Below are positions 11,405-51,787 of a stretch of DNA of 64,000 bases, piece by piece. The position numbers and the translations under genes are program-made. The stretch's first letter is position 1. Each line of letters opens with the position of its first letter. This DNA is from Sulfolobus sp. A20 (GTDB taxonomy: Archaea; Thermoproteota; Thermoprotei_A; Sulfolobales; Sulfolobaceae). The notes below the pieces were generated by a model. That model did no database searches and had not been told where the DNA came from. It saw nothing but the letters and a program-made list of their open reading frames with translations. The stretch lies in NCBI RefSeq assembly GCF_001719125.1, contig NZ_CP017006.1:2122384-2186383 (forward strand), read 5' to 3'.

Positions 11405-11705
11405 CTGACCTCCTCCCCATCCTAAAGGTTCACCTAGGGCGGTTCACTGGTTTACGGTTTACTGCCTTCATCAGTTCGTGGCTAGTGAGCTTCAACACTT
11501 ACTTCACTCGTCCAGCAATGGCTGGGTTTTAAACCGGATTACCCCCTATCCCTTTTTCCTCACTCTACCCTTCTCGAGACTTTGGGGGATATGTACTGAG
11601 GAGGAAGGACACATTCTTACTACCCCTTATTTGTCTTCCTCCCCAACAATTTTCCTTCACTAAAAGCTTTAACCCCAAGCGAGGCTTGTCATTCGTTTTG
11701 TCATG
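11405..11705 (-). mobile_element. non-coding hairpin-ended element, ~300 bp (long form B)
   Basis: Read on the minus strand this starts near 11705 with GACAAGCCTCGCTTGGGG and ends at 11405 with GATGGGGAGGAGGTCAG. It is collinear with the elements at 43926-44201 (+) and 51290-51787 (+). Shared blocks include AGTGAAGGAA near the left end, GTGTCC followed by TCCTCCTCAGTACATATC, and GCTGGACGAGT further on. No shared reading frame is apparent. A 61-codon frame across it on the plus strand is not credible. It is a copy of the same non-autonomous family as its neighbour but a different subtype. Confidence 0.7.
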
Positions 11706-26054: not shown

Positions 26055-26264
26055 GATAAACAAGTAGTTTGAAACACATTTCAAATGGTATTAGATACTA
26101 TCACAAATTATGTTAGAGCTCTCTTCTAGTGCAGGATATATGATAAAAAACTCTGGGAGTTATCGTATACAGCTGATTAGAGTAATAAATCTAGATTAGT
26201 TTATTTGCTAATTACCGCGGTTTTCTTTTATAAACTGGAAAAAGAAAACCTTACAAAATAAGTA

Positions 26265-26297
26265 GAGTCTCGCCCTTAAGGGCGGGGAGGAAATCAG
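26265..26297 (+). repeat. solo hairpin unit of the dispersed family
   Basis: CGCCCTTAAGGGCG (26271-26284) is a perfect 14-bp palindrome followed by GGGAGGAAATCAG. A second tail-like GGAGAAAAGGTCAG follows at about 26308-26321. It lies in the gene-free stretch 26055-26671 with another unit at 26396; the two may be the remains of one element. Confidence 0.7.
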
Positions 26298-26395: not shown

Positions 26396-26443
26396 TGATA
26401 AAAAGAACAGTAAACCTCGCCCTTTAGGGAGGGGAGGAGGTCA
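26396..26443 (+). repeat. solo hairpin unit of the dispersed family
   Basis: TGATAAAAAGAACAGTAAAC precedes CTCGCCCTTTAGGGAGGGG and AGGAGGTCA. It keeps the left edge (TGATAAAA), the stem and the tail, so it is one of the best solo units. The same left edge and tail recur inside a coding gene at 49418-49464. The remainder of 26055-26671 is AT-rich and shows no gene. Confidence 0.75.
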
Positions 26444-26671
26444 AAATAGTATAGTTTCTCTTGTGAGCTATTTTATTTGTATTCTTAAAGATTAATTGAG
26501 AAATCACTACTTTTCTCCTATACCATCACACAATTGAGTAACAATTCATCAAATAGATCTTTTATTGCGAAGAATCTCTCATAAGATTAATTTCCGATAA
26601 TTTATAAAAACTGAGAAAGATTTTCCTAATAAGTAATTAGAAAGTATAAAACCATATAATGCTTATATGAG

Positions 26672-30856: not shown

Positions 30857-30975
30857 ATTTTATTCATATAATAAACTATGTTTCAAAATAAAAGTTTATA
30901 GGCGATAAAAGACTTTGTCTAAAATCTCAAAATCACTAACCTTCCTCTAAGTGAAGAATTCGAGGTTTTTTAGGC

Positions 30976-31188
30976 CGACTTCCTTCCGACCTAAAAGGCA
31001 AGGCTTTCCCTACTTTGTAAAAATTAAGGAGGAGGTGAATTAAGTGTTTATGACTTTTACACGTATATACCTTAATACCTCCACTCCTAGTATTGAGAAA
31101 CTCATCGCTTAAATTGTAGAAGTCTTAAGATATAACCTAGTAATGAAGGAAGGATAGACCTTGCTTTTTAAGGTAGGGAGGAGATCAG
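30976..31188. repeat. two hairpin units in opposite orientation, 210 bp
   Basis: At 30976-31022 a minus-strand TTTACAAAGT-led unit ends in GGAAGGAAGTCGG. At 31146-31188 a plus-strand unit reads GATAGACCTTGCTTTTTAAG, then GTAGGGAGGAGATCAG. Opposite orientation means these are two insertions or an inverted segment rather than the ends of one element. This lies in the gene-free stretch 30857-31316, otherwise AT-rich and without a gene. Confidence 0.6.
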
Positions 31189-39169: not shown

Positions 39170-39306
39170 GTTGAGTTAGGTGAGTGTTAAGAAATCAAAC
39201 CCATTCATCTACTGGTCCCAATAAATGAGTTGCCTCACCCAAAATACATTTCCATAATAAAGAAAACTCAATTTATTTCAAAACAACCGAATTGTTGCCT
39301 ACACTA
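39170..39306 (-). repeat. ~135-bp interspersed repeat, copy 2
   Basis: This is the partner of 24500-24635, with shared blocks such as CCCAAAATAC and AATTGTTGCCTACAC. Its end runs directly into a minus-strand hairpin unit (39307-39340), suggesting it is the interior of a long-form element whose left end is that unit. It lies in the gene-free stretch 38974-39524, which otherwise holds only the two hairpin units below. Confidence 0.55.
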
Positions 39307-39340
39307 CTTAAAAGGCGAGGTTTGTCATTCTTTTTATTAT
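39307..39340 (-). repeat. hairpin unit (left-end type)
   Basis: Minus strand: AATAAAAAGAATGACAAACC, then TCGCCTTTTAAG. It has the lead AAAAGAATGACAAACC seen in other copies, but the right arm and tail are replaced by the interspersed repeat, as expected for the left end of a longer element. Confidence 0.65.
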
Positions 39341-39376: not shown

Positions 39377-39430
39377 ACTGACCTTCTCTCTGCCATAAAA
39401 ATGTGAGGTTTGTCTTTTCTTTATCATCTC
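39377..39430 (-). repeat. solo hairpin unit of the dispersed family
   Basis: Minus strand: GATGATAAAGAAAAGACAAA, then CCTCACATTTTTATGGCAGA and GAGAAGGTCAGTA. Left edge TGATAAA, stem and GGTCAG tail are all present. It lies 80 bp from the unit at 39307, in the same orientation. Confidence 0.7.
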
Positions 39431-43925: not shown

Positions 43926-44201
43926 TTGACAAAGGAAGGACAAGCCTCTCCCCCGGGGTAAAGTTTTTAAGTGAAGGAAGATTATTGAGGGAAGCCATAA
44001 AGCGTAATGAGAACGTGTCCATCCTCCTCAGTACATATCCCCGAGTCTCGAGGAGGGTGGAGTGGGGGCTCCTCTACCCAAGGGATAGGGGTAATTTGGC
44101 TGAAGACCCAGCTATCGCTGGACGAGTGGGTATTAATGCCCACTAGCTATGAAGTGGTGAAGGCGGTAAACCTATGAACCGCTCTAAGGGGAGGAGGTCA
44201 G
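43926..44201 (+). mobile_element. non-coding hairpin-ended element, 276 bp (long form B)
   Basis: The left end is TTGACAAAGGAAGGACAAGC and CTCTCCCCCGGGGTAAAG; the right end is GCGGTAAACCTATGAACCGC, a hairpin, then TCTAAGGGGAGGAGGTCAG. It is collinear with 11405-11705 (minus) and 51290-51787. A 58-codon open frame in the middle is not shared by the other copies and is not believed. The GCGGT/ACCGC hairpin before the tail is reminiscent of the 3' end of IS200/IS605 guide (omega) RNAs, but no TnpB is present here. It fills the gene-free stretch 43830-44263. Confidence 0.7.
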
Positions 44202-48004: not shown

Positions 48005-49651
48005 TTAGACTATTATAAGTAATTTAGACGCAAATACACTTAATACTACTCCTAAAGAAATTCCATAAATTATACCTAAGTACTGACTGCTTCTCCCCAA
48101 TAGGTAAGAGGAGATATAAGTTATTAAACAAAGAGTCACAATGACAATCGAACTTATAAATAAGGGGAAAAGATTTCCCGTTAGTATATAAGATAAAACG
48201 CTGTATGTTTTCAAATAACTCGTAAAAGGTATTATTAATATGCTTGATGGTAAAATATAAGATAAGGGTTTAACGTTAAATGTATTTCTTAAGCTTTGAA
48301 GGAAATAGGATAAGGATGAAAACAATGCAACTAGTGTTATGTTAACGTCATTTAGTAAAGTGATAGAGACAATTATTGGTATAACACTCATTACGAAATT
48401 CAACTTATTTTTAAGATAATATCCGCTCAAAGGTAAGAAGAAATAATATTTATTTAATAATATGGAAAATACTACGAGTAAACTATACTTAAGAACATCA
48501 AAATTTTCAAGAATTTTCTTCTCATAAATTATAAGGAAGTAAATTAGTGAGACTGCTAAGGCAACATACGAAAATATGTAGTAATAAAAGAAGAGCACTA
48601 AAATAGATGAGATACCAACCAAAATTATTGGCAAAGTTTGCAAGAATCTCTTCATTAAGAAATAACGAACAATCAGATCATATTTAAAACTTGCTAAGAA
48701 AATTGCTGAACATATAATTGATGAAATAGCGATATTTATATCGTAATACCCCTCTGAAAACAAGTAAATAGTAGCTAAGGATAATACAATGGAGGAAATA
48801 AGCAATGACGTTCTATTAAACTTTGATAAGACTAACATAAAGGGTATGGAGAATGGGAAAAGCATACTTAATCCTATGCTAATTAAGGTGAAGTCTAATA
48901 GCTTTGACTTCCAGAGATAAGGGATTATAAAAATTGGTGTTAAATACAACGCATATCTAAAGCCTTCTAGATATAGTATTATGGAAGAAAATATCAATGA
49001 TGGTGGGAAAAATAGTCCTAAACCAATTGATAAGAAGATTATAGGTATTTTAAAAATCGTATACGTTAATGCGATTAAAACTGAAAACAATGAAAGAGCC
49101 TCATATATCTCTACTTTTCTCTCACTCCTTACCAATATAGCACTTATTACTCCTCCTAACAGATAGAAATAAGATATGTCAGAGTATTCCATTCTGAAAA
49201 TAGAAATTAGCAAGAAAGTTATACCAGCTATTATAACTCCTCTGTAGTCTAGTAGTCTCGAAATCATCAACGAGAAGAAGAATATCACGATAAACTCTTC
49301 TAAAGTGGTTAGAGGTAAAATAACCAAGCCTAGAGCGATACAAAACAGTACAGTAGGAAAAATTCCTTTCTTATCATATCTTATTCCTAAAATTAAGAAG
49401 GGTAAGGATAAGACTATGATAAAAAGAGGGAGAACCTCACCTCTAAATGGGGAGGAGGTTAGGATATAGTTATGAGCCAACATAATACCTAAGATGGACA
49501 GTATAGGAATAGGTCTCCACTCCTTTAGGAAATAAAAGAAGGATAACACTATTAAGTAAAATGAAACGAAAAACGAGAACCTTTCAAATGCTATACCTAT
49601 CGTAGCTGCTGATACAATGAACGTTAGGATTCTAGAGACTGTCCACCTCAT
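48005..49651 (-). CDS. large polytopic membrane protein, unknown function
   Basis: The product has 548 residues with about 14-16 hydrophobic helices spread over the whole length and almost no soluble domain. Loops are short. The product resembles no transporter family I know; it could be a polysaccharide-related or flippase-like membrane protein, or simply lineage-specific. The loop TSSPFRGEVLPL near residues 62-73 is encoded by a hairpin unit of the dispersed family (49418-49464), suggesting insertion of the unit into the gene without breaking the frame. It is monocistronic. Confidence 0.7.
   Translation of the reverse strand: MRWTVSRILTFIVSAATIGIAFERFSFFVSFYLIVLSFFYFLKEWRPIPILSILGIMLAHNYILTSSPFRGEVLPLFIIVLSLPFLILGIRYDKKGIFPTVLFCIALGLVILPLTTLEEFIVIFFFSLMISRLLDYRGVIIAGITFLLISIFRMEYSDISYFYLLGGVISAILVRSERKVEIYEALSLFSVLIALTYTIFKIPIIFLSIGLGLFFPPSLIFSSIILYLEGFRYALYLTPIFIIPYLWKSKLLDFTLISIGLSMLFPFSIPFMLVLSKFNRTSLLISSIVLSLATIYLFSEGYYDINIAISSIICSAIFLASFKYDLIVRYFLMKRFLQTLPIILVGISSILVLFFYYYIFSYVALAVSLIYFLIIYEKKILENFDVLKYSLLVVFSILLNKYYFFLPLSGYYLKNKLNFVMSVIPIIVSITLLNDVNITLVALFSSLSYFLQSLRNTFNVKPLSYILPSSILIIPFTSYLKTYSVLSYILTGNLFPLFISSIVIVTLCLITYISSYLLGRSSQYLGIIYGISLGVVLSVFASKLLIIV
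49418..49464 (+). repeat. hairpin unit inside a coding gene
   Basis: TGATAAAAAGAGGGAGAACC is followed by TCACCTCTAAATGGGGAGG and AGGTTAGGA. It matches the unit at 26396-26443 at the left edge (TGATAAAAAGA), in the CCTC arm and in the GGGGAGGAGGT tail, over about 47 bp. It lies on the opposite strand to the gene, and the gene reads through it without a stop. All the other units found are outside convincing genes. Confidence 0.6.
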
Positions 49652-51151: not shown

Positions 51152-51289
51152 ACCATTATATCATATTGTTTATACTAATTTAAATTTCTGAATCAATATT
51201 AGGACAGGTCGATTAAAATGTGGTTATAAGATCTTTAAAAATTACAAATATTGTATAAGTAAAAAACTATCTTAAACTTTAATACTGAC

Positions 51290-51787
51290 TAAGAAACGGT
51301 AAGCTCGCCCTTTAGGGCGGAGTAATATTTTTAGTGAAGGAATGTTATTGAGGGAAGCCAAAGAGGGGTAGTGAGAACGTGTCCTTCCTCCTTAATACAT
51401 ATCTCAAGCACTAAAAAAGGTAGGGAAAAGGGATAAGATAATTTGGGGTTTGGGTTTCATCGGATCTCATATAATTTGATATCGACCCTCAACCCTTGGG
51501 CATCACGGGAGTCAAGCGGGTCTCCCGCCTTCACCCGCCCCCTTAGCGGGATAACCCCAACCCACAGTGGGGGAACATCTTGGGCTATGCCAGCCTTTCG
51601 GGATACATACCCACATCTGGCATTATGTAAAAAAATTAGATGGAGTTACATAAACTTAATTCTCTCACTGAAACTGCTTACCACGGCTGAACCATCACTG
51701 GACGACTAAGCGTTAAAGCCCACTAGCTATGAGGTGATGAAAATGAAGGTGGTGAGCTTGTGAACTGCTCTAAGGGGAGGAGGTCAG
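51290..51787 (+). mobile_element. long form B element interrupted by another element
   Basis: Outer ends: AAGAAACGGTAAGCTCGCCC then TTTAGGGCGG on the left, and GTGAACTGCTCTAAGGGG then AGGAGGTCAG on the right. The outer parts align with 43926-44201 up to AATTTG (about 51445) and resume at GCTGAAC (51686). The ~240 bp between (51446-51685) is foreign to the family. The element fills most of the gene-free stretch 51152-51884. An 88-codon frame over the inserted part is not credible. This nesting gives a relative age: the outer family inserted first. Confidence 0.7.
51446..51685 (+). mobile_element. nested GC-rich element with strong secondary structure
   Basis: It starts with GGGTTTGGGTTTCATCGGAT and CTCATATAATTTGAT, a sequence that recurs at 61971-61996 and 62017-62051. 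The 51483-51623 part is markedly more GC-rich than the surroundings and can fold: GCGGG/CCCGC (51516-51528), CCCGC/GCGGG (51534-51550) and ATGCCAG/CTGGCAT (51587-51623). In AT-rich hyperthermophile genomes such islands often mark structured RNA. No ORF is credible. It is the second family of mobile sequence in the window. Confidence 0.55.

Follow-up and report, generated by a model that had tools for sequence, protein, structure and literature searches.

A decayed terminal-only IS200/IS605 unit in frame within a membrane protein gene of Sulfolobus sp. A20

Small mobile palindromes that lie in frame within unrelated genes and are translated have been described in Rickettsia (Rickettsia palindromic elements, RPE); they are about 150 bp long, have a conserved coding frame and include many in-gene copies, with 44 in R. 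conorii (PMC10969869). PATEs (palindrome-associated transposable elements) of Haloquadratum are described as "fused terminal sequences" after repeat-mediated deletion between near-terminal palindromes, and include a 52-bp terminal-only form (HqIRS46 of Haloquadratum walsbyi) with fused IS605-type ends (PMC3119063). The IS200/IS605 transposons (TnpA Y1 and TnpB; IS608, ISDra2) carry subterminal hairpins, a guide at the hairpin foot and a target tetranucleotide flanking the left end (LE), and the logic of target and guide is known for this family (PMC6006769). Bacterial REP sequences are short hairpins present in many copies, with a guide tetranucleotide on the 5' side; they are kin to IS200/IS605 ends, have a GTAG-type foot and are mobilised by a domesticated transposase, TnpA-REP (RAYT) (PMC6006769, PMC8266576). 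Finally, the Sulfolobus MITEs SM1-SM4 and SMN1 are non-autonomous elements of Sulfolobales, of which SMN1 (320 bp) and SM3A (164 bp) are bounded by inverted terminal repeats and derive from other parent ISs (PMC3718332).

The window analyzed here is the 64,000-nt stretch at positions 2122384-2186383 of the single-contig 2.69-Mb genome of the thermoacidophilic archaeon Sulfolobus sp. A20 (G000), and one of its membrane protein genes contains a short hairpin unit in frame (Table 1). The unit belongs to a family of about 120 in this genome. Like the PATEs as far as they are described in PMC3119063, these units have no terminal inverted repeats, cause no target duplication, reach a high copy number and mostly occur without an intact transposase; they differ in lineage and sequence, being about 45-bp units of Sulfolobaceae, and, unlike PATEs as described there, they also occur in frame inside protein genes. 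In-frame PATE copies were not found in the portions of the literature covered by our search, and earlier reports may exist. In contrast to typical IS200/IS605 members, the units hold zero genes and a single hairpin and are thus non-autonomous derivatives. They resemble RPE in that an in-frame insertion is absent from orthologs, both in the window gene and at G000:C1:1434103, but they are about 45 nt long, derive from IS200/IS605, and are in frame in only 2 of about 120 cases; they also lack a conserved frame, the element lengths of 92 full units splitting 46/25/21 across the three frames. Compared with REPs, the full LE and right-end (RE) edges of the IS are kept, the feet are CAAA, CAAG or AAAG rather than GT[AG]G, and the genome has no TnpA-REP. 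The Sulfolobus MITEs are several times longer than the units. The outcome is that of RPE and the element is a terminal-only PATE, which would make it an archaeal counterpart of RPE.

Table 1. Coordinates of the features discussed; positions without a genome prefix are those of the window
Feature	Coordinates	Strand	Remarks
Membrane-protein gene carrying the insert	48005..49651	-	open frame, 548 aa, polytopic; orthologs align on both sides of the insert
TGAT, inferred target tetranucleotide	49417..49420	+	ancestral coding sequence, outside the element; part of Ile-Ile, residues 78-79
Decayed terminal-only IS200/IS605 element	49421..49462	+	42 nt = 14 codons; antisense LTSSPFRGEVLPLF, residues 64-77
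Left-end tip with degenerate guide position	49421..49434	+	alignment to R1 and LE of L140/L141
Hairpin remains	49434..49459	+	read from sequence and cmsearch alignment
Right-end tail AGGTTAG (canonical AGGTCAG)	49456..49462	+	alignment of 120 units and right ends of complete elements
Canonical intergenic solo unit, used for comparison in the earlier note	26396..26444	+	R1 67.9 bits, E 3.9e-17
Unit pair	26251-26297 and 26396-26444
Unit pair	30975-31020 and 31141-31188
Unit pair	39295-39339 and 39378-39426
Right-end remnant of TnpB element, genes gone	11405-11428	-
Right-end remnant of TnpB element, genes gone	44155-44201	+
Right-end remnant of TnpB element, genes gone	51286-51784	+
Second in-frame unit, L092	G000:C1:1434103-1434151	-	R1 59.5 bits
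Decayed ortholog of the membrane-protein gene, L017/L018	G123:C2:1269820-1273811

Architecture and parent elements of the unit family

An alignment of 120 units with their flanks gives the order of target tetranucleotide (TGAT, TGAC, TAAC or TTAC), left tip with the guide tetranucleotide, one hairpin (CCTCGCCC-TTTA-GGGCGGGG) and right tail (AGGAGGTCAG). Two congeners have complete TnpA+TnpB elements (L140 and L141) whose LE and RE match the two ends of the units; these elements start with TGAC followed directly by AAAACGAACGACAAG-CCTCGCCC..GGGCGGGG-TAAAG and finish with AACCCTCGCCCTTTAGGGCGGGGAGGAAGTCAG. The units also match the ends of a TnpA-less TnpB element in the genome itself (G000:C1:1445215-1446678). 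Because its edges match the L140/L141 ends, a solo unit is read as left tip, one hairpin and right tail, a composition as expected if the core had been lost between two similar hairpins. The guide at the 5' foot covaries with the target in 94 units (TTAC-AAAG, TGAC-CAAG, TGAT-CAAA): the fourth base of the target (T/C) goes with the fourth of the foot (A/G; Fisher p 1.9e-10), and the second of the target (G/T) with the first of the foot (C/A; Fisher p 5.6e-9), where the p-values overstate independence, as the units are related by descent. This covariation holds for the family; in the window copy itself TGAT is present and the guide is degenerate.

Matches to a covariance model of the unit (R1, see below) were found in 31 of 31 Sulfolobaceae genomes searched, with a few to 146 in each, of which the lowest counts may be due to chance. 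A Y1 transposase gene (Y1_Tnp) was found in 17 of these 31 genomes, but not in G000. Alongside its unit matches, the latter has at least 20 TnpB-domain matches, several of them with stop codons, and its congeners still keep intact TnpA+TnpB elements. In the window, close pairs of units, less than 200 bp apart, occur in the same or in opposite orientation. There are also right-end remnants of TnpB elements, in which a TSYE..VKAVN..MNR-like coding end is followed by GGGGAGGAGGTCAG; an 88-aa ORF that adjoins one of them (51443-51709) looks like antisense noise.

The boundaries of an insertion can be read from a filled and an empty site in two sister species. In a cyclase-like gene of G032 (L179 701-747, minus strand; G032:C1:1563214-1563260), a 43-nt unit after TTAC shifts the frame. 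When the flanks are joined after TTAC the frame is restored, with GEIFYLEELADHC as in G042, and the joined flanks read ...GEIFYLEELADHCRKDK..., the same as the G042 gene (L211, 88% identical). From this comparison it follows that insertion occurs exactly 3' of the target, which is kept once, with nothing duplicated and nothing lost. In a further gene of G032, encoding a membrane protein, a unit (L175 701-748) appears to break the reading frame, with a plausible continuation in another frame.

The window copy and its absence from orthologs

By the same boundary rule, the TGAT at the edge of the window copy is ancestral and the element comprises the 42 nt that follow it. The plus strand at 49417-49462 reads TGATAAAAAGAGGGAGAACCTCACCTCTAAATGGGGAGGAGGTTAG, so that the element starts with AAAAAGAG after TGAT and ends with GGTTAG; the outer stem ACCTC/GAGGT (49434-49438 / 49455-49459) still pairs, whereas the inner stem has decayed. 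It shares its edges with the solo unit (TGATAAAAAGAACAGTAAACCTCGCCCTTTAGGGAGGGGAGGAGGTCAA), with 11/11 identical positions in both TGATAAAAAGA and GGGGAGGAGGT. An earlier note, made from the window alone, had placed an in-frame hairpin at 49418-49464 and pointed out this likeness at the left edge and tail; both observations hold, with the edges of the hairpin moved by 1-2 nt.

The R1 model was built from an alignment of 21 other units of the same genome, leaving the window copy out. It matches the window copy end to end (model positions 1-49) with 34.0 bits (E 1.5e-7 in the window; E 5.9e-6 genome-wide, as one of 146 matches at E<=1). As a null model the same 21 sequences were reversed and run on the same genome, which gave nine matches at E<=10; the R1 E-values are considered sound because the best of these reaches only 16.3 bits (E 1.24). 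With the 26396 unit as query, the window copy was absent from the blastn matches in the genome at E<=1e-3, and a sequence-only HMM gave it 16.3 bits (E about 0.02 per genome), so it is the gapped hairpin model that carries the evidence. An Rfam search of the window gave zero matches. The decay, seen in the degenerate guide and in the weak HMM score, counts against the assignment. With 76% identity to the consensus, against a family median of 78%, the level of decay is ordinary for the family, and the resemblance of the window copy to the units is beyond chance.

On the strand of the gene, the element provides codons 64-77 (CTA ACC TCC TCC CCA TTT AGA GGT GAG GTT CTC CCT CTT TTT) without a stop or frameshift, as had been proposed. 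Orthologs of the protein were found in six other genomes (seven sequences, L010-L016, 30-46% identical). The KEWR..P motif upstream of the insert is conserved among them, and hydrophobic residues are kept where they align with the TGAT-encoded part; without residues 64-77 the protein reads HNYI joined to IIVLSLP. The residues of the insert are absent from all of L010-L016, and TSSPFRGEVLPL occurs in 0 of the 7, which agrees with the gap that the earlier note had predicted, although not with its size of 15-16 residues; the observation named there as a refutation, orthologs with the same residues in unrelated codons, was not made. In the closest ortholog (L015, 46%; HTINPNFILITLSLP) 11 residues are missing after residue 61, and in L010 (38%; GAILHLEGFTIVALSLP) 13 after residue 58, and neither alignment has another gap of 5 or more residues over its full length. 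A gap of this kind fits a 14-codon element, since the TGAT edge is ancestral target and lies outside the insert. In the more distant orthologs 5-7 residues are missing, as the length of the loop itself varies. That the gap is 11-13 residues in the closest orthologs, smaller in distant ones and never exactly 14 counts against the reading. When 14-residue deletions between residues 5 and 200 were scanned, removal of residues 64-77 gave a near-maximal gain in score, ranking 2-3 for L015, L010, L016 and L011 and lying 1-2 points or less below the best deletion.

By hydropathy, the insert falls into a polar segment flanked by hydrophobic helices, in line with the loop between helices suggested from the sequence before. 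An AlphaFold model (three sequences; mean pLDDT 42) is too weak to count, and agrees with hydropathy in showing residues 66-73 or so as a loop. Pfam has no family for the 548-aa protein. Searching genome contigs with the single protein gave no match, whereas a search with the alignment found two loci coding for the same proteins as L015 and L010; no relative was found among viral contigs. The gene is missing from most congeners, and the genomes searched include no close relative in which the allele is intact and empty. The decayed ortholog in the congener G123 was considered as such an allele and ruled out, as its N-terminal part is unreadable; it adjoins a flippase-like membrane-protein gene. 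The orthologs in G011, G050 and G042 are flanked by glycosyltransferase-like genes, and these neighbourhoods suggest a role in surface glycan assembly.

Origin of the insert and frequency of in-frame units

With high confidence, we interpret the insert as an old terminal-only IS200/IS605 copy that now contributes 14 translated residues to a membrane protein. The notion of a mobile hairpin turned into protein sequence, which the earlier note had raised conditionally, is thus supported by the R1 match and the ortholog gap, and the parent can be named. What the data show directly is the identity of the unit, its parents and boundaries, that orthologs lack it, and that the frame is open. A TnpA/TnpB transposon would have lost its core between two near-identical subterminal hairpins, fusing its ends; the resulting unit would have entered the non-coding strand of the gene 3' of a TGAT and left the target unduplicated. 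It presumably moved in single-stranded form with the help of a Y1 transposase that was supplied in trans and is no longer present in the genome. Antisense translation would then add the extra residues to a short loop that links two hydrophobic helices. A length of 3n, the lack of stops in the frame used and a tolerant loop probably account for survival of the insertion in a protein that is likely still functional.

Most insertions in the frame of the window gene would break the gene, and survivors would be a filtered minority, because only 4/92 full units are both open in this frame and of length 3n (21/92 are open). The cases observed are rare: the window copy is the only one of 120 scored units enclosed by a long ORF (549 codons), and a check of shorter ORFs added one good case, L092, leaving 118/120 outside convincing genes. 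L092 is cleaner than the window copy, as its 15 codons (KGTISLTLLGREGGQ) continue the frame of a 118-aa membrane protein, around SYNDKGTISLTLLGREGGQKKL, and in six orthologs (L204-L209, 38-47%) a gap of 16 residues falls precisely at the unit. Five further candidates (G000 2316999, L148, L164, L175 and L198) were rejected, their frames being short, due to chance or part of broken genes, and 88 units from other genomes yielded no deep in-frame case.

The membrane protein might simply have an ordinary variable loop whose DNA resembles the unit by coincidence, and the varying loop length among orthologs, the marginal HMM score and the scarcity of units in convincing genes would fit with this. We consider it highly improbable: the R1 score is about double the null maximum, at a genome-wide E-value of 5.9e-6, the ortholog gap coincides with both edges and with the TGAT target, and a second in-frame case exists. 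It is also unlikely, if less so, that the gene is a young pseudogene, open by chance, whose insert is not under selection. The patchy presence of the gene in congeners, one of them with a decayed copy, is compatible with a pseudogene, but the frame runs over 548 codons with zero stops or frameshifts, and the identity to orthologs extends along most of the length and includes the same invariant residues.

A variant of the favored explanation, overlapping with it in confidence, concerns only the order of events: a longer or frame-shifting insertion may have broken the gene at first, after which small deletions, including loss of the stop in the loop, reopened the frame and trimmed the element to 42 nt. 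We regard this sequence of events as possible but not the likelier course. It stays alive because elements are most often 44 nt long, which is not 3n, and the consensus unit has a TAA in the frame that the window gene uses; moreover, the unit nearest in sequence (2260701) has 44 nt and is several small indels away. Conversely, three other full units of the genome have a length of 3n and no stop in that frame, so direct arrival in frame is possible, and the unit at 1434103 retained its full 45 nt in frame. The terminal-only copy may thus have arrived in frame and stop-free, or been corrected by small indels after insertion.

Significance for Sulfolobaceae

In-frame small mobile palindromes are best known from Rickettsia; the same outcome is now seen in archaea, from another, traceable source. 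Whether terminal-only IS200/IS605 relics are a general, recurrent source of in-frame insertions in Sulfolobaceae, a counterpart of RPE that builds extramembrane loops, some of them kept by selection, is a more speculative extension that at present we find rather doubtful. As the boundaries and the target are known and the empty site can be predicted, the protein can be compared with and without the transposon-derived loop, and the abundance of parent units in every Sulfolobaceae genome searched makes the rate of such events countable. Relics of these units can supply new protein sequence, and two genes of this genome are affected.
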